In this document: positions 1 through 21,604 of the stretch, piece after piece
Layout of the letters: each line of letters starts with the position of its first letter
Position numbering within the stretch: position 1 is the stretch's first letter
Origin: a virus
Virus record (IMG/VR): IMGVR_UViG_3300047560_001797
Span: 1 to 21,758 of that record
Length of the DNA stretch: 21,758 nt
Direction: 5' to 3' (one strand)
Position numbers and translations under genes: made by a program
Notes under the pieces: model-generated
What the model was told of the DNA's origin: nothing
Databases searched by the model: none
The model's input: the letters and a program-made list of their open reading frames with translations, nothing else

Positions 1-193
1 GATTAACATCTAGCTCGTTAAACAAGATTTTAGCCAATGTTGTTTTACCAATACCTGCGTTACCACTAAACAACAAGTGTGGGATAGTGCCTTGTTTAAT
101 CCAAGATTTTACTTGTTCTTTTTGATGCTCGTCTCTAAATACATAACCATCAATCTTACTTGGACGATATTTTTCTACCCATAATTCTTTCAT
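1..193 (-). CDS. 44: Sliding-clamp loader ATPase subunit, T4 gp44 type (5' part of gene, runs off the window)
   Basis: Only the first 64 codons are present; the gene continues past position 1. The translation begins MKELWVEKYRPSKIDGYVF and contains HLLFSGNAGIGKTTLAK, in which GNAGIGKTT is the Walker A (P-loop) of an AAA+ clamp loader. The opening WVEKYRPS matches the conserved start of T4 gp44 and of RFC small subunits. In T4 the gp44/gp62 complex uses ATP to load the gp45 clamp on primed DNA for the replicative polymerase. The ATG at 191-193 is preceded by AAAGG in TTTAAAGGCACAAAATG, a usable ribosome binding site, and lies 9 bases after the stop of the 77-residue membrane protein gene, so the two are probably co-transcribed. 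Walker B, the arginine finger and the C-terminal collar lie outside the window. The family call is firm; activity cannot be judged from this fragment. Confidence 0.93.
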   Translation of the reverse strand, partial: MKELWVEKYRPSKIDGYVFRDEHQKEQVKSWIKQGTIPHLLFSGNAGIGKTTLAKILFNELDVN

Positions 194-202
194 TTTGTGC
201 CT

Positions 203-436
203 TTAAACTAATTCTTCAACAATACCTAGTGCTTCTGCGGCAATTAAACCAACACCGCACCACACAGGAAAACCAACAACTAAACAAACTCCTGCTGTGA
301 TACGGATAAAACTTTTTGCAAGACTAATGTATAGATGTTTTTTTGGATCTGGGTGTTTCATTGTTGCGCCTGGCTCTGTGTCCAAAACGCTCTTTGCTTT
401 CTTAATGTCACTAAGTGCTTCATCAAATGTACTCAT
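203..436 (-). CDS. Small membrane protein of unknown function (77 aa)
   Basis: I do not recognise this protein. The N-terminal 40 residues are polar and rich in Lys and Asp (SDIKKAKSVLDTEP and KHPDPKKH), probably helical and cytoplasmic. Residues about 43-71 are hydrophobic (ITAGVCLVVGFPVWCGVGLI) and can form one membrane segment or a tight hairpin; the chain ends in the acidic EELV. No signal peptidase site is evident. The start at 436 is well supported by AGGAG (TATAAGGAGATCTCTATG). It is the first gene behind the sigma70-like promoter at 460-489 and is followed after 9 bases by the clamp loader gene, suggesting early or replication-phase expression. A host-membrane role, such as anchoring replication or altering the envelope, is only a guess. 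Confidence 0.8.
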   Translation of the reverse strand: MSTFDEALSDIKKAKSVLDTEPGATMKHPDPKKHLYISLAKSFIRITAGVCLVVGFPVWCGVGLIAAEALGIVEELV

Positions 437-505: not shown

Positions 506-898
506 TTACATTCTAACGAAATCTTCTGGACTGTGTACTGAGCCGTGCGCCGCAGTAGTGTATATTCCAAACTCTGGTCCTTTTGGACGCTCGTCTGCTG
601 ACATCATAATGCCAGTTGGGTCAACACGCCAAATAGTAAATTTAGTTCCATCGTCTTCTTCTACTTCTAAACCACGAGTCCAACGACCGTGTTCTATAAG
701 AATCCATTCACCGACTTTGACGTCTTTTTGTTCTGGACCTACGGCAAAGACTTTAGCCCAACGAGGTTTGACACCTTCTGATTTACCATCATCGCTTGGG
801 ATATAAATTCCACTTGCTGTTTGTTGTTCAGCAAAGTTCATATCTCTAACTAAGATATGCGCTTGGATTGGTCTAAGTTTACTAGCTTGTGCTTTCAT
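506..898 (-). CDS. groES: GroES-like cochaperonin (functional counterpart of T4 gp31)
   Basis: This 130-residue protein has the GroES layout: an N-terminal strand (LRPIQAHILVRDMNFAEQ), a mobile-loop region with the hallmark GIYIPSDD at about 30-37 that would contact GroEL, then WAKVFAVGPEQKDVKVGEWI corresponding to the GroES 'V.AVG.G...VKVGD.VL' core, and a final strand pair including WRVDPTGIMM. Cellular GroES is about 95 residues and T4 gp31 about 111, so this is longer. The excess is a C-terminal extension from about residue 105 (ADERPKGPEFGIYTTAAHGS onward) plus an expanded middle. T4 gp31 replaces GroES on host GroEL so the large capsid protein can fold; a similar role for virion proteins is inferred here. 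The ATG at 896-898 overlaps the upstream stop as ATGA, so translation is probably coupled. Confidence 0.9.
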   Translation of the reverse strand: MKAQASKLRPIQAHILVRDMNFAEQQTASGIYIPSDDGKSEGVKPRWAKVFAVGPEQKDVKVGEWILIEHGRWTRGLEVEEDDGTKFTIWRVDPTGIMMSADERPKGPEFGIYTTAAHGSVHSPEDFVRM

Positions 899-1158
899 TC
901 GTTTCCTTCCGGATCCATACCTGAAACGTCCTTAACTGCTGGAGCCGCTTGGGCTGTAGATTTTGGACTAACTTCTCTCAATACGTCTTCACGCTTTTTA
1001 ACGATTTTGCCACCTGGGCCAATTTCGTCTCCGCGAGCATTAACTCGCACGTTACCGACAGCTAATGTCATTTCGTTTTGCATGACTAGTTTGTTCATAT
1101 CGACTTCTTTGCCCTGCATTGAACGATAAACTTGTCTTTGTTGTTCTTTCATACTCAT
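895..1158 (-). CDS. Conserved-looking small phage protein of unknown function (87 aa)
   Basis: I cannot assign a function. The first 30 residues are charged and probably helical (MKEQQRQVYRSMQGKEVDMN), the middle (TLAVGNVRVNARGDEIGPGG) looks like a short beta region with a glycine turn, and the tail is low-complexity and rich in Ala, Pro and acidic residues (STAQAAPAVKDVSGMDPEG). There is no signal peptide or membrane segment. The start at 1158 is supported by AGGAG seven bases upstream (CCTAGGAGATTAATATG); a second in-frame ATG two codons later is less well placed. It overlaps the cochaperonin gene by four bases, so the two are very likely co-expressed. A virion accessory or scaffold role would be speculation. 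Confidence 0.78.
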   Translation of the reverse strand: MSMKEQQRQVYRSMQGKEVDMNKLVMQNEMTLAVGNVRVNARGDEIGPGGKIVKKREDVLREVSPKSTAQAAPAVKDVSGMDPEGNE

Positions 1159-1185: not shown

Positions 1186-1695
1186 TTATCTCAGGAATTC
1201 CTGCCAGTCTAAATTATATTTGATGCTGTCTATACTATGAACACCAATAAGGTACAGTACATAGCTTGCCACACTAGATCCACGTCCTAATCCCCAAAGC
1301 ACGTTTTCTTTTGAGCAAGTATCAACAAAATATTTAAGCCAGCGTAGCAAGTCTAGCATATTTCTTGCTTTGTACGCTTCTAACTCTTCGCGAGTTCTTG
1401 TATAGTTTGGATCCCATGGTGGGCATTGTTCTAACACCCATTGTTCAATATCCATGTTTTTGTATTCATCGGGCATGAACCAGTTGCTTTGGTGCGCCGA
1501 ATCATATCCTTCTAAACTGATATCTAAATCATCCGGATACGGTTGTAAAAAGGAAAAGCCAGCCTGCTTTTCCAAATTTTCAGTTTCAGATGTTTTTTCA
1601 ACGAATAAATCAGAAGATAATGCTTGTCCGCGGTATAAAGCGTCAAATAAATCTTGTTCGTTAAAAATTGGATTGCTATATTTGTCTAATCGCAT
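1186..1695 (-). CDS. Orphan DnaE-like (DNA polymerase III alpha) palm fragment, lacking the catalytic motif
   Basis: The 169-residue product ends with a clear piece of the bacterial Pol III alpha palm: LRWLKYFVD, then GLGRGSSVASYVLYLIGVHS at 135-154, then IDSIKYNLDWQEFLR. In DnaE the matching stretch reads roughly GPGRGS..GSLVAYAL.ITD.DP...DLLFERFL and is followed at once by the PDxDxDF motif carrying two catalytic aspartates. Here the reading frame stops after EFLR, so the acidic motif, fingers, beta-binding and OB domains are missing, and no PHP domain is visible. The N-terminal 90 residues (including FLQPYPDDLDISLEGYDSAH) match nothing I know. The stop is followed by a proper ribosome binding site and the next gene, so this looks like a maintained short gene rather than a local frameshift. 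It cannot be an active polymerase alone; nucleotide or DNA binding, or polymerase interference, is inference. Confidence 0.72.
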   Translation of the reverse strand: MRLDKYSNPIFNEQDLFDALYRGQALSSDLFVEKTSETENLEKQAGFSFLQPYPDDLDISLEGYDSAHQSNWFMPDEYKNMDIEQWVLEQCPPWDPNYTRTREELEAYKARNMLDLLRWLKYFVDTCSKENVLWGLGRGSSVASYVLYLIGVHSIDSIKYNLDWQEFLR

Positions 1696-1704
1696 TCAAC
1701 TATA

Positions 1705-1935
1705 TTAGTTGACTTTAATCAGTTTGTCAAGATCTTTATTGCGTGATTGCATCATTTTTTCGTAGGCAACTTGCTGTCGTCTACTCAATTCTGCTTTATA
1801 TGCTTCCAAAATCATAACAATTTGTTGTTGTACATCAAAATTATGAGTTGCGAAGTATTTGCGAGTTAGGTCGCTAATACGATTCTCTAACTCGCTATCT
1901 TTGAACTTTTCTAAGTCTTCGACTAATGGATGCAT
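1705..1935 (-). CDS. Small alpha-helical phage protein of unknown function (76 aa)
   Basis: The product (MHPLVEDLEKFKDSELENRI at its start, SRNKDLDKLIKVN at its end) is almost wholly helical and charged, with heptad-like spacing around LENRISDLTRKYF and QQQIVMILEAYKAELSRRQQ, so a short coiled coil is likely. It resembles small conserved proteins beside fibre or baseplate genes of T4-like marine phages, but I cannot name a function. The frame is open upstream to 2049, yet that part overlaps the end of the 786-residue fibre gene. I chose the ATG at 1933-1935 because it follows that gene's TAA by one base (TAAAATG). No good Shine-Dalgarno is seen, so translation probably depends on reinitiation. 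The gene ends 9 bases before the DnaE-like gene starts. Confidence 0.78.
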   Translation of the reverse strand: MHPLVEDLEKFKDSELENRISDLTRKYFATHNFDVQQQIVMILEAYKAELSRRQQVAYEKMMQSRNKDLDKLIKVN

Positions 1936-1936
1936 T

Positions 1937-4297
1937 TTATGGCCATGTAGAAATTGCAACACGCTTCCAGGTGTTATTGGCAACGCAAATATATAGATAA
2001 TCTGGATCGTAGGCAATGTCGCCTGCTTTACCAGTATCGTTAGCCGCACCTGGTTGGTCTACAATAACAGCTGGCATAGAATCTAATTCGCAACCGTTGT
2101 TACTAATCACATACCAATGTCCGCTTACAAATTGTAATGTACATGCATCTCCAATTTGGTCAAATGTAATTGTTCCTGTTCCGCCACCAATTTTCCAACC
2201 TGCGTTTGAAACAGACACAACCATGTTGCCAACAAACGCTTTCATGATAAGTGTCTTAACTTGGCCTTCTGTGCCAGCGGCAAGAGTTGAACTTTCTGGG
2301 CCTTCTGTAGCAAAATAACTAACTGCTGTGTCTAAACGAATAGAAGCAGAGTCAGCAACGTCTTCACTGCCGTTGTATGTAATGCGTAATGCTGTCCAGT
2401 TTACACCATCGCTGGTTAATGTTACGCCACCGTAATTACCTGCAATAGCAATAGTACCAGTTTCGCCGTTGATAGTTACACTTGGGTTACCTGGATCAAC
2501 TGTAATACTGTTTGTTGCGGCATGTCCGTTGTCAACAATAGTAATAGTTGTACCTAGTTCTGGGTTAACTGGCAATGTAATAGTCAACGGACCATCTGTT
2601 GTATCAACAATGATACTTTGACTTCTAGATGCTGTGTAATCTCTAACAACCTTGATAGAGCCGCCGGCTACTTGAATCGGCCATGCTTTGCCCATTAGTG
2701 ATGTATCTGGACCACCAATGTCTCTTGCGTATAGATATAATGGGCTTGGTGTATTTTCTGTAACAAACAATTCAATGTATGCGCCAGCTGTACTGCCTGG
2801 AGTACCGTAAGAATAAACACCGTTTGCTTCGCCAGTATAATCATGTGCGTAAGCAACAATAGGATCAGTATCTGGAACAGTCGAGAATCTCATACCTAAA
2901 CCAGAATTTGAAACATCTTCTAAATTAAAGCGATATTTCTTACCAATTTCAAAACGCAATGCCGCTTGGTCGATTGGAACACCGTCAAAGTTAAATGGGT
3001 CTGGGTTAGTGTTGTTTGGAATAGTAACAACGTATTCTGTTAAGTCAACTGTGTTAGTCCATGAACCATCACCTGTTGGATCATATTTTAATACGTCACC
3101 TTGACGTGGATCTACGATATTAACGTCTTGAACGTCAGCTAAATGTGCAACGTTAGAAGAAGCGTTAAGTGTTGATCCTTCACCGGTAACAACAATCTTA
3201 CCACTAACGTAGATATCTCCACCAACGTTTAGTGTTTTACCAATACCAACACCACCAGTAATAACTGCTGTTCCTGTGTCAGGTGATATAGAATCTGTAC
3301 TTTCTTGAACATTAAGTCTACCAATGTTCAATGTTGAATAGTTAATTTCGTTTTGGTCTAAGTTACCAATGTAGTTTAAGAAAACTTTTGTACCACCGTT
3401 ATATGTCCATGCTTCGACAACTTGGTCAACAGTAGCATCTGGTTTTAGCAACAGCGGCAATGAAAACTCAGAGTCTGCAATAATTTCGCCTACTCCGTCA
3501 GTTAATAGATTTAAAGTTTTCCATGGTTTAACTTTACCACTGCCTGAACCTTTGTTAGTTGCAATAAACACAACACCAGCAGTCATACCAGTCATGTCAA
3601 CACTACCGGTACCGCTTGGGTGGCTAGTGTCAACAGTATAAGTTCCTGTTCCACCAGAACCTGAACCTAAACCATTAATTTTTGTTCCTGCTGTAATACC
3701 TGAACCAGAAATATAAGTGTTAGTGTTAAGGACACCAGAAGCAACAGCAGTTACAGTAAGTGTAGTACCTGTGATAGAACCAGTAAATGTTGCTGTAGGA
3801 TCTGCACCCATTGTTGTAAAATTAGTAGAACCAACAGTATCAATAGTATAGCGTTTACCAACAGTAACGTTATCGCCAACATCGATAGCAATAGCGTTGT
3901 TTCTTAAATGTAAACGAACATTGGCATACTTACCAGTAGTTGGCCAGTGTCTAAATGTTAGAGTAGAATCGTCTGTTATTTGGAAAACCTGCAATGAACC
4001 AACACGCACATCGATGTCTGCTGATGTAGGAGTCGAACTGTTAGTGTAAGAAGTTCCGTGGAAGTTTGTATATGTTCCGTTAGAAATGTTGCTTCCACCA
4101 AAGTCGTTGCTTAGTGTACTTCCTGTAAGCGCAGATTTTAAAATGGCCTTAGCTTGTAAATCCTCAAGCTCAGTTTTTGCGGCTACAAAGTTAGACTTGA
4201 TTGCGGCAAAATTGTCACGAAATCCCTGGCTGTCATTGTCCTGACCCGCTACCGGATACGTACTATCGATGTTATCATTGTTTATATTGCTACTCAT
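1937..4297 (-). CDS. Modular tail fibre-like structural protein (786 aa)
   Basis: A mosaic virion protein. Residues 20-48 ([20 protein letters not shown]) are a variant of the N-terminal anchor motif in the neighbouring fibre genes. Residues 147-256 hold a TVGSTNF...[14 protein letters not shown] module with a second module ([18 protein letters not shown] to [12 protein letters not shown]) inserted in it. Residues 342-376 carry the [19 protein letters not shown] repeat typical of marine phage fibres. Residues 447-545 resemble a beta-sandwich common in marine phage proteins ([27 protein letters not shown]). Residues 553-640 are Thr/Gly-rich beta sequence, and the end ([20 protein letters not shown]) is a familiar fibre terminus. 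The ATG at 4295-4297 has AGGAT upstream and overlaps the preceding stop as ATGA. A host-contacting tail or baseplate appendage is the likely role; exact position in the virion is unknown. Confidence 0.8.
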
Positions 4298-7146
4298 ATG
4301 GTTATCCTATCATTTCTGAATACAAGGTATTTATCTTGTGTTTGACCCTCTACAGAATCTATTATATATCTATCAGCTGTGTAATCCAGCTGGCTAAAGC
4401 TGAAATCTGTAGTGTTTAAGTAGTTTTTAATATTGAGCAGAATATCGTCTGCTGTGCCTACTTTACAGTAACAGATTGGTACTGCTAGTTGAAAATCTAG
4501 TTCTCTCTTAGTTCCGGGCTGTATACTACGCATCCATAATGGAAGGTAGTTGCGTTCTGAGGCAAAGCTGTCACCAACTCCGCCATCCCAATTCTTTAAT
4601 CTATCACGCCAGTTGCTAATGCTGTTTGGAAAGTATTCGTTTACCTTTGGATTGGATACTTCAAATCCTTGGCTGTCCGCAGTTATGTTTAAATCAGGTC
4701 TTCTTGCATCTGGAGCATCGGCTAACAAGTCGCCTATTTTAGTACTCCAAATACTGTTACTTAGGTCAACTGTGACCTTTTGTGTTTGTAAACTTAGCTT
4801 TTCAAGTTTGTTAGGTAAACGCTTGCCGTTAGGCTCGAGTGGGTCTAACATTTCAATGTAAATTACTTCGTAAACAGCATCGGTAGTTCCTGGGTTATAA
4901 GCAACTGCTTTCTTCAAACTACCAAATTTAAATCTCTTACGCTTATGGTTTAACCCCATTGCGCTAACGTAGGTTGCCGCTTCTCTAGTTTCAATACCAG
5001 CGTATACTAACATAGACAAATCTGTTTGAATACCAAAGTTGATATCATTTGGTCTGTAAATGCTAGTAGGAGTAAACACGGTTGTGTTGTTGATAAAAGT
5101 TTTCCAGTTGTTACGTTGTTCTTCTTTTAAGAACGGTCTAACTTTAATGTTGCTGAATATCAACTGATTAGGAGTGTCAATGCTAATCTTAAATGTTCTG
5201 CTGATAGCACTATATCCAAACTGGTCTTGTGCTTTAACTGTGAACTCGTAAACTCTGTCAATGCTTGTAGTACCGCCGTCGAATGTAGTAACATCTGTTG
5301 TAAAATCAAATGTAGTCAACCCAGCTGTGCCTGCAAGCGCATCACCGTATTGGTTAACTTTACCAACAATTTCACCGCTCAAGTCTAAACTTAGTCCTGG
5401 TGGTAAACGTCCACTAGTGATTGTGTATAATAGCGTTGCTCCGGCAACTGTGCTAGTAGCATTGACATTAAGAGTTGAAATAAAGTTGGCATTAATAGTA
5501 CCTAAGTCACTTGGAGTATTCCAAGTTAACACGCTGTCTACTTCGCCTAGTATGTCAACAGTAAAAATTTTAGGAGTGCTGGCACGTTCGCCCTTGTCAC
5601 TGATTCTAGTAGCAGTAACAGTAAAACGGTAGTTCTTAGTTACAGCAGGTTGATATGGAACCAAGCCGTGTACTTCTGCATTGTTTTCGTCAAACTGCAT
5701 TCCGTCTGGAATAGCACTAGCAGTACCAATCAAAATTGTAACATCGTTAGGTACATCAACTTCGAGTGGGTAGTATAAGGTTAATCTGTATTCATTGTTA
5801 GGTAATGCCTGTACATTGTCTACACGGTTAATTTGTGTAGCACCCTGCACATACCCACTAAGTGTTAGCAAATGCCCAACTTGTGGTGCGTTTGTTGCTA
5901 ATGTAATGGTTAAGGTATAGCTGCCAATTACGTTATCTGGAGTTGTAATTCTTCTTGTTGTTGCTTTACAATCAGCATTAATTTGCTCTAGATTATAAAT
6001 GATATTTTCTGTATCGTAAGTGTCTAGGATTAACGTGATGTAGTTGTTTGCTCTGTGCAAGCCTAAGTAGCTAGGAGTTAACCACATTGGCGGACGCAAG
6101 TAAGTTACGTCAGCAGTAAACAACTGGTTAATAGTTAACCATTCAGTGTTGTCCGCACGGAAGAAATCATCACCTACAACAAATATTTTAAATTTACGTT
6201 TAGCAAATGTGTCGCCATCTGTAACGGTTACTGTGAATTCGTAGGTACGGTTTAACTTTTTAGGTCTGTTGCTTTGTAAGGCAAAGTCAAAGAACACCGC
6301 ATCGTAAATGTAACTATCATATCCGTTTGTTGGTACAAACGCAAAGTCGTATGCTACCGCATCGTAGAAGCTGTTAGCATAAGTTCCGTCACCGTCTTCT
6401 GGTCTGATAGCCAGTGTCGGTTGCACGAATCCAACAATACGTCCATCGTCAGTTAGTACTAGGCCTGGAGGTAATGCACCACCATCTCTGTCAATAAAAT
6501 AACTTAATCGTTGGCCAGTGGTTGTATCTGCATCAGTTGCTTGTATTTGATAATCAACATAGGTACTGTCGATAACAAACAACTCGTTATCATCACCGAT
6601 GTTTAGTAACCCTTCTGGAGTTACAAATTCAGGAGCGTCTTCGCCTTCGACAGTAATAACAAATGTTCTGTCGGAAATTTGGCCGTTTTTGCTTGCTCTT
6701 ACACAAAATGTAAAGTCTGTAATTCTTGGAACTTCGTAAGGACTGCCAACAATATTCCCAGCATCTAAGCGTGTGCCCGGTGGAAGTTTGCCGCTGATAA
6801 TTGTATATGTTGCACCGTGTCCAGCTGGAGTAACGGGCAATGGAATATCTAACTGTCGTCTTTCTGGAAATGCTATGCTAGATGCAGTACCTGTGCCTGC
6901 GGTTTCTCTGTTGGAACCGCTTAAAGTAACTTCAGTAGGACCTGCGCCGGAACCGTTGTTAATAGCAGTGAACACTTCGCCCACTATGTTGTAGTTAGCA
7001 CCAATCTTTTTAAAGTCGGTTGTGCCAACAGTTTCGATGACATATTTTTGCCCAACGATGAAGTTACCGGAATTAACTGACTGGTTAATTCCTGGGTCTG
7101 CTCCAAGATTGTAGCCTGATGATTTAGTCCATATTTCTAGCGCCAT
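4294..7146 (-). CDS. Large structural protein with four Ig-like (He_PIG-type) repeats (950 aa)
   Basis: The start [15 protein letters not shown] is an opening I know from marine phage structural proteins and differs from the NDGTGD anchor of its neighbours. Residues 32-90 are a [13 protein letters not shown]...[10 protein letters not shown] module also found in the 786-residue protein. Four putative Ig repeats of the LPPGLxLxxxGxIxG type follow: [14 protein letters not shown] (121-134, strands to 167), [15 protein letters not shown] (225-239, to 325), [16 protein letters not shown] (479-494, to 533) and [15 protein letters not shown] (581-595, to 656). The C-terminal 290 residues (such as [20 protein letters not shown]) have no repeats and may form an assembly domain. 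I chose the ATG at 7144-7146, with GAGAG ahead and a late-promoter-like box, over an in-frame TTG seven codons upstream. Probably a baseplate or fibre component; catalysis is not indicated. Confidence 0.8.
4328..4335 (-). promoter_or_regulatory. Late-promoter-like GATAAATA before the 786-aa fibre gene
   Basis: The minus strand reads GATAAATA at 4335-4328, matching the NATAAATA form reported for late promoters of T4-like cyanophages (T4: TATAAATA). It lies 30 bases before the ATG at 4297, inside the end of the preceding coding region, where it also encodes Asp-Lys-Tyr. The same eight bases occur before the 950-residue gene. A chance match is possible because the sequence is AT-rich. Confidence 0.4.
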
Positions 7147-7167
7147 AATTGCTCTCAGTTGTAGCAA

Positions 7168-7182: not shown

Positions 7183-7755
7183 TTAAACAAAAGTTCCGAA
7201 GTCTATTTGACTAACTTGCGGTGTTCCTGCAAAACCGTTTAGTAATAAACCGTTCATATCTAAGTCGTATGTAGTGTTAGTAGCATCTGGAATGCCAGTT
7301 GTACCTGGCACAAACGAACCAAAATCTACAGTAATTGCATTAGATGCTAGCAATAATTCCATTAAGGTAGTCAATGCTCTAACATCAATACCAAACACAG
7401 TAGTTTGAACATCACCGTGATAAATGTAATATTGGTCTAAATCCAAGTTTGCACTTAATTTAGGACTAGGATCGTTTTCTAATTTTGCACGGGAAATTAA
7501 ATCAATTTCAGTATCAGTTGATGTGATATCAACTGTGTTGTCCGAGCTAGTTAATGTTTTAAATTCTAAATTAGGATCAGTTGCATTACGTTGGGCAAAT
7601 ACAGCTTCGCCTGTGCCTAGATTAGTTCCGTCTAGGATAGGACCGTTTGTGCCCAATGTGGCAAAGTTGGCGTTAACTTTTTCAAACGCAGAGCGCAAAT
7701 CATCGCCTGTTCCGTCGTTTGCATAGCTACCAATGTTGATTGTTTGTAATGTCAT
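7183..7755 (-). CDS. Short fibre-type structural protein with NDGTGD anchor (190 aa)
   Basis: The N-terminus (INIGSYANDGTGDDLRSAF, then EKVNANF) is the same anchor motif that opens the 361-residue and giant fibre proteins. The middle (residues 40-130) is variable beta and turn sequence, and the C-terminal 60 residues contain two DFG(S/T)F motifs, VDFGSFVPG and IDFGTFV, the second ending the protein. Similar endings are familiar in marine phage fibre proteins, but their role is not known to me. The ATG at 7753-7755 is preceded by AAAGAGAG. A weaker late-promoter-like GGTAAATA lies at 7781-7774. It could be a small appendage protein or an adaptor that docks on the same site as the larger fibres; no enzyme motif is present. 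Confidence 0.72.
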   Translation of the reverse strand: MTLQTINIGSYANDGTGDDLRSAFEKVNANFATLGTNGPILDGTNLGTGEAVFAQRNATDPNLEFKTLTSSDNTVDITSTDTEIDLISRAKLENDPSPKLSANLDLDQYYIYHGDVQTTVFGIDVRALTTLMELLLASNAITVDFGSFVPGTTGIPDATNTTYDLDMNGLLLNGFAGTPQVSQIDFGTFV

Positions 7756-7782: not shown

Positions 7783-8867
7783 TTAATTGTAGAACGAACC
7801 AAACTGTATAGCGTGTACGCTAACTTGTAAATTATATTGTGCTTGAAGATTTGTAGCATATACGTTTATACTACCACTACCGTTGCCTGGACCAGTTCGA
7901 TGAACTTCGAATGTTGCTAATGGAGTAGGGCTAGTATAAACTAACCCATACACACTCATTATAGGCTCTGCATATGAGTTATAATTTGCGGCGATTGCTG
8001 CCTCACATACTTGGGTATGATCCAAATCGTCAGTGTTATCGTCAAGGCGTGTTTCGACCATAATAACTAACTTAAATCCAGTTTGCCAAGCATCACCGGA
8101 ATAAATGAGTCCTGAAGAACCAGCTTCTACAGTTGTAGTACCTTGTGTAACGGTTCGTGTAGTTCTTTGTTGGATAGCACCGCTTGTTGTGCTTGTACCG
8201 GACGGTAGTTCTAGGTCACCGTTACTATTAAAAGCCCAAACGTTATTGTTAACTTTGATGTTATGAGAAAGTATACTATCTCCAGCACCTAAATCATAAT
8301 GCTCGCTACCTGCTGGAAACACTAAATGTCCGCTATTATCAAAATGCCATTTAATACTATCGGTAATATAGCTATTTGTTTGTAACCACGCACCGTTCGA
8401 GTCTGCCCAAATCCATGTTTGTTCAGGGTGGTCAGTATCAGGACCTGCTGCCAACGCCGCATAATTAAGGTCACCTGTACCTGGTACAACACGAAGTGTG
8501 GCACCATTAATAATGCTTTGATCCGGCAATACTACAACACCGTTAGTATCTAATGTTAGTCTATAGTGCTGATTGCTGTTAGTTTGATTAGTGCTGTATA
8601 GTTTGTTTGTGACAATCTTGTTAGCATTAGTTAAGCTAAATCCATCGCCAAAATCACTAATCGAAATGGAATCAGTCCAACTTAATGTAGTGCCATCGGT
8701 TGTTAGTACTTTTCCACTGTTGCCTGTTTGTACCGGAATCTGTACGTCTGCACCTGCAAGAGAATACAACTCGTCAAAGTTATCATTTACTTTTTGGAAC
8801 GCTGTACGTAGAGGATCACCAGTACGGTCGTTTGCTGTATTTCCAATGAATATAGTTTGTTTAGACA

Positions 8868-8868
<1 letters not shown>
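7783..8868 (-). CDS. Fibre-type structural protein with NDGTGD-type anchor (361 aa)
   Basis: The product begins MSKQTIFIGNTANDRTGDPL and continues FQKVNDNFDELY, the anchor motif shared with the neighbouring fibres. A linker with GKVLTTDGTTLSW follows. Residues about 110-235 contain three spaced copies of a 'W.F...G.L.LP' strand motif (LTLDTNGVVVLP, WHFDNSGHLVFP, WAFNSNGDLELP) often seen in marine phage tail proteins. The C-terminal third (SGLIYSGDAWQTGFKLVIMV onward) looks like a compact beta domain and ends AIQFGSFYN, echoing the DFGTF ending of the next protein. The ATG at 8866-8868 overlaps the giant fibre stop as TAATG and has a strong AGGGAGAG site, so the genes are probably translationally coupled. 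A tail appendage role is inferred from motif and location. Confidence 0.75.

Positions 8869-21604
<12,736 letters not shown>

Follow-up and report, generated by a model that had tools for sequence, protein, structure and literature searches.

Family C polymerases in one and two pieces

Apart from the split forms considered here, family C DNA polymerases are large single-chain enzymes, and they are the hallmark of replication in bacteria. The bacterial DnaE and PolC enzymes each consist of one polypeptide of approximately 900–1400 amino acids, in which PHP, thumb and C-terminal domains are present. A family C polymerase made from two genes is known from cyanobacteria, where the split DnaE is accompanied by a split intein. 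The cyanobacterial split point lies much further toward the C-terminus than the one considered below.

In phages, a split minimal DNA polymerase III α was described from comparative genomics of the group 2.2 jumbo phages (Iyer et al. 2021, PMC7824862). The sections of that paper devoted to the enzyme describe a stand-alone N-terminal NTP-binding unit and a Mg-binding and template-binding partner that is encoded far away, with a family B polymerase beside them. A 172-amino acid “truncated” Pol III α had also been reported from phage CBB (CBB_328) in 2017, where its shortness was remarked upon, and the portion of that report that deals with the gene does not identify a second half (PMC5259590). 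Homologues of the α and ε subunits were noted in the description of phage Atu_ph07 (PMC6102473), and in a 2022 survey, PF07733 was the sole gene that was both confined to one cluster of marine jumbo phages and present in over half (51.9%) of it (PMC9123017). No experiments on the split enzyme were found in the literature searched.

The gene that is the subject of this analysis lies in a stretch of viral DNA of 21,758 nucleotides (IMG/VR record IMGVR_UViG_3300047560_001797, positions 1 to 21,758), referred to here as the window. Its product, half A, belongs to the same gene family as CBB_328 and fits the enzyme of Iyer et al. as the N-terminal unit (phrog_11127, with phrog_11778 as the partner, half B), with no difference in kind from the description in the sections cited. 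Given that description, the window gene is a further member of a known split enzyme. The exact split relative to PDxDxDF, the way in which A and B bracket gp44/gp62 in some phages, the occurrence of the enzyme in a 141-kb Alishewanella phage and a one-piece relative of approximately 570 amino acids seemingly go beyond those sections. The split enzyme shares with DnaE and PolC the GRGSS, PDxDxDF, KxD and fingers motifs, as well as the predicted structure of the palm, and differs from them in its division and in the domains that accompany the palm. Unlike the cyanobacterial DnaE it has no intein parts, and A stops within the palm while B opens with the catalytic motif or a short way ahead of it. 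A two-protein version of approximately 360 amino acids that keeps the palm motifs and the fingers would show the minimum required for family C chemistry, and would put a split family C enzyme in the same virus as a eukaryote-like family B polymerase. With the junction located exactly and the linkage of the genes described, the prediction of 2021 becomes open to a direct test with two small proteins.

The half A gene and its product

The half A gene runs uninterrupted from ATG to TAA (Table 1), positioned as in the initial annotation, which had read it from the window alone as a Pol III α (family C) palm piece that carries GRGSS and is devoid of the catalytic aspartates. This assignment is borne out by profile searches. 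In a Pfam scan, PF07733 (DNA_pol3_alpha; curated cut-off 23.9 bits) aligned to residues 99–168 with 37.7 bits (E = 2.2e-9), and phrog_11127, which is 171 positions long, matched residues 3–169 of the 169 with an E value of 6.8e-40. The same Pfam scan placed no PHP family on half A, and the 57 residues ahead of the palm are too few for a PHP domain. The chain ends in ...NLDWQEFLR and aligns with E. coli α up to residues 392–393. The PDFDVDF motif of E. coli α we take to begin at residue 400, which puts the stop approximately seven residues short of PDxDxDF, just ahead of the motif as first proposed. Unlike in a full family C polymerase, then, the catalytic aspartates are not in the chain that holds GRGSS, as the window half A ends before DxD.

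Table 1. Features of the half A locus in the window
Feature	Position	Strand	Basis
Half A gene, 169 aa; predicted N-terminal (NTP-binding) subunit of a split minimal Pol III α	1186..1695	−	ORF, PF07733, phrog_11127, dN/dS
GRGSS motif, residues 137–141	1273..1287	−	Alignment; GxGRGS invariant in the half A family
Half A C-terminus (Leu-Arg-stop) at the split point	1186..1194	−	Half B start MPDIDIDF in near-complete relative; end-point counts
Half A residues 58–169, predicted first half of a Pol β-like palm (E. coli Pol III α 271–393)	1189..1524	−	AlphaFold2 model aligned to Pol III/PolC
Promoter-like TTGACA-17-TAATAT just upstream of the half A ATG	1702..1730	−	Consensus match only
Small conserved neighbour, phrog_14844	895..1158	−	phrog match; small genes likewise downstream of half A in relatives
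GroES-like protein, conserved neighbour	506..898	−	PF00166 8e-9; synteny
Small 77-aa neighbour between the GroES-like gene and gp44	203..436	−	ORF only
T4 gp44-type clamp loader large subunit, N-terminus, cut by the window end	2..193	−	phrog_168 6.8e-22

The AlphaFold2 model of half A (mean pLDDT 84) supports the same assignment, since from residue 58 to the C-terminus it aligns with Pol III and PolC chains at Z scores of 8–12. The N-terminal part of no assigned type, to which 90 residues had been allotted, is present but comprises approximately 57 residues, given that the palm match begins at residue 58. Foldseek alone gave no match at E ≤ 0.001 for either half A or half B; the fold assignment rests on a second structural alignment, in which the Pol III and PolC rows stood far above unrelated rows.

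Stand-alone short half A genes, annotated at 122–183 amino acids, were recovered by tblastn against phage records from large T4-like phages of Pseudomonas, Xanthomonas, Stenotrophomonas, Agrobacterium, Sinorhizobium, Salmonella, Escherichia, Klebsiella, Erwinia, Vibrio and Salicola. At least 313 relatives are present in IMG/VR; counts of contigs obtained by pattern scanning are lower bounds. The 81 distinct short homologues are 30–84% identical to the window protein, and every one of them both keeps GxGRGS and stops 0–4 residues past a common point, so that short phage homologues with the same end point, as the initial annotation had envisaged, are indeed the rule, and no member of this family continues into an acidic motif. 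The median dN/dS among close pairs is 0.066, which indicates strong purifying selection on half A. No fused A-B gene of this family was present among the ORFs of 341 loci; four long matches in these loci were rejected as fusions and represent a different one-piece family C polymerase. A weak PF07733 match in CBB at 53183 was likewise dismissed, as it contains three internal stops. The only bacterial homologues of half A are on six MAG contigs (L327–L332) filed as Neomarinimicrobiota, Saccharibacteria, Rickettsiales, Pelagibacter and Methylophilaceae. These look like mis-binned phage DNA, because half B was found as well in the three MAG genomes that were searched again.

The partner gene

A search of complete genomes with PF17657 (Pol III fingers) revealed a single additional gene in XacN1 and in RAS14, the products of which begin with MDIDIDI and MDIDIDL, respectively, and thus with the catalytic motif that is missing from half A. 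This second gene, half B, encodes approximately 190 amino acids and is annotated “DNA polymerase”. It was matched by tblastn in 65 phage records, in 63 of which at least 80% of the query was covered. In a near-complete 356-kb relative from the window clade, the half A of which is 68% identical to that of the window, half B starts with MPDIDIDF. In all 161 distinct complete half B sequences DxDxD lies close to the N-terminus, usually 1–2 residues and most frequently two past an ATG codon, and all 161 have KxD, which contributes the third catalytic Asp. The invariant columns of the alignment include DxDxD, HxxG, KxD, RP and HxxxY.

Half B carries a short fingers domain. Its model is of modest quality (mean pLDDT 73) and matches well only Pol III and PolC chains, with the best rows at Z 8–9 and unrelated rows at no more than 2.4; the alignment covers 103–128 residues spread over E. 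coli residues ~381–782. When half B is modelled alone, residues 1–9 and 41–72 fall below a pLDDT of 50, and these belong to its palm part, composed of the N-terminal motif and the residues leading to KxD, which would combine with half A into one palm. Approximately 61 residues separate DxDxD from KxD, where the thumb would sit, compared with presumably some 150 between DxD and KxD in E. coli α. A split intein was ruled out, as no more than four residues follow the palm in half A and no more than approximately 20 precede DxDxD in half B.

Co-occurrence and linkage of the two halves

Neither half B nor a family B polymerase was seen in the window, which is a 21.8-kb fragment, and the pairing proposed for it draws on its relatives. 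Among the matches listed, and as compared by eye, at least 57 of the 60 phage records with half A are also half B records. The three outside this overlap are Vibrio phage 2.275.O, in which half B was confirmed by profile, and two GAP32 records. Both halves are present in Alishewanella phage Slicko01 (141 kb) and in the 356-kb contig of the window clade, where they are approximately 170 kb apart. In a second set of contigs, half A was found in all five half-B-bearing contigs of 180–270 kb, and no separate half A in seven such contigs of 82–155 kb; in the earlier set, it was not found in one half-B-bearing contig of 216 kb (G023), which is perhaps incomplete. Like this contig, several half-B-bearing contigs of 80–155 kb in which half A was not found may be incomplete, and all of these records were counted neither way. 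That half B was not found in window-clade contigs of 39–111 kb is uninformative, as these are fragments. Half A had initially been called an orphan, a description rejected once the PF17657 search had revealed a second gene, which brings the missing catalytic half to nearly every full-size relative tested.

The initial annotation also took half A to be a real gene of a T4-like genome, in which a family B polymerase is the norm. This agrees with its relatives, as such a polymerase is encoded by 12 of 12 half-A-bearing genomes in the first set; in the second, fragments included, it was found in 7 of 9. In Slicko01 (L155/W12), Paride (W01) and LR756508.1 (W13), the family B matches are divided between two open frames, of 578 and 322, 825 and 379, and 1022 and 625 amino acids, respectively, and this polymerase may accordingly be split or interrupted there too.

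In two loci (L123 and L124), the halves lie on one strand within approximately 5 kb of each other and flank gp44/gp62, in the order half A, a small gene, a GroES-like gene, a membrane-like gene, gp44, a gp62-like gene (phrog_11758), phrog_11058 and half B, with one extra small gene in L123, where the halves are at 1201–1731 and 6001–6576. The 356-kb relative still has phrog_11758, phrog_11058 and half B together. These gene orders suggest that the halves were formerly neighbours around the clamp-loader genes. Elsewhere, half B lies 1.5–2 kb upstream of primase and helicase genes (Paride and 121Q, in which the halves are gp56 and gp16) or 2.3 kb from a gene annotated as Pol III ε (XacN1 ORF223; L120 3780–4373). 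Both XacN1 ORF223 and Paride_0068 (L081 3564–4337) are annotated as Pol III ε or a polymerase exonuclease subunit, and the product of the ε-like gene may proofread for the split enzyme.

A compact one-piece family C polymerase of approximately 565–575 amino acids, without PHP, was also observed (PF07733 7.6e-43, PF17657 1.5e-14). It is encoded in L303 (14112–15806, plus strand), in L283, L304 and L324, and in L342 (LR756508.1 47361–49040), and in some marine relatives it lies 5–7 kb from half B. The 484-kb phage LR756508.1 has the one-piece polymerase, and a search there for a separate A or B found neither; the one-piece form may hence have replaced the split enzyme in that phage.

A proposed two-protein polymerase and its alternatives

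Homology, split point, co-occurrence, conservation of the catalytic residues, purifying selection and gene linkage are established at the level of sequence comparison. Half A is, with good confidence, one subunit of a two-protein, PHP-less and apparently thumbless minimal family C DNA polymerase. In such an enzyme, half A would supply the N-terminal half of a Pol β-like palm with the nucleotide-binding GRGSS, and half B, encoded elsewhere in the phage genome, would supply the acidic residues (DxDxD and KxD) and shortened fingers. As there is no intein at either junction, the halves would associate non-covalently to rebuild a single palm and active site. The assembled enzyme of approximately 360 amino acids would be devoid of the PHP, C-terminal β-clamp, OB and τ parts, and seemingly of a thumb.

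We infer complex formation between A and B, polymerase activity and a role for the enzyme from these comparisons. The linkage to clamp-loader genes, to primase and helicase genes and, in XacN1, to the ε-like exonuclease gene suggests that it takes part in the replisome or in repair synthesis while the family B enzyme acts as replicase, and repair or gap-filling synthesis would be the likeliest role. A more tentative proposal, to which we give somewhat less than an even chance, is that the split thumbless polymerase uses the phage T4-type clamp and clamp loader with a DnaQ-like exonuclease, rather than the bacterial β, τ and ε, in a hybrid replisome of family B and family C enzymes.

A thumbless polymerase would be unusual, and another nucleotidyl transfer reaction is therefore possible; this is the main rival to a repair or gap-filling role. 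Accommodating the same heterodimer and an intact nucleotidyltransferase site, it would assign A and B a job other than templated DNA synthesis, such as priming, end addition or the modification of another molecule. The very small size, the lack of evident thumb and clamp-binding parts and the separate family B replicase of the half-A-bearing genomes first tested would all suit such a job, but the RP and HxxxY motifs, typical of Pol III α fingers, are invariant, and A and B are found among replication genes, which leaves this reading rather improbable. Far less probable is that half A acts alone and unpartnered as a domesticated nucleotide- or DNA-binding protein, as the initial annotation had suggested. 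Half A does have its own gene, often far from B as in the 356-kb relative, yet near-complete co-occurrence, exactly complementary end points and, in some genomes, the retention of A and B as flanks of the clamp-loader genes speak against it.

The β- and τ-contacting parts of Pol III lie outside the palm half that is kept in half A. This bears on the other initial suggestion, that half A acts as a dominant-negative mimic to poison the host Pol III, which draws on its resemblance to a piece of host α without the aspartates. Just half of the palm is retained, however, and half A is found among phage replication genes in phages that infect many unrelated hosts; in full-size genomes, half B almost always accompanies it. 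With a co-occurring partner to supply the catalytic residues, the mimic is unsupported and scarcely credible. It is equally hard to credit that the gene is what decay has left of a full-length phage dnaE; the ORF is short for a family of 900–1400 amino acids, but its frames are intact, and truncation or decay was rejected on the common end point of the 81 distinct sequences and the low dN/dS.

Surroundings of half A in the window

From half A to gp44, the gene order of the window is the usual one of its relatives, namely half A, a small gene, a second small gene (GroES-like where annotated), often at least one more gene and the gp44 clamp loader. The product of the 77-amino acid gene was given no confident family by the phrog and Pfam scans. 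An SD-like AGGAG is found ahead of the gene next to half A. Promoter-like matches in the region number 10 against 5.9 expected, and chance also yields such matches. An inverted repeat, TCAACT-AATAT-AGTTGA (1696–1712, minus strand), immediately precedes the half A start codon and overlaps the −10-like hexamer; it is a possible operator. Four very long ORFs, all on the minus strand, look like structural proteins (8868–17786, 2972 amino acids; 17702–21604, 1300; 4294–7167, 957; 1937–4297, 786). Similar opening segments, of the type IxIGxxxNDGTGDxxRxxFxKVNxNFxxL, are shared by the ORF at 17702–21604 and the smaller genes at 7183–7755 and 7783–8868.
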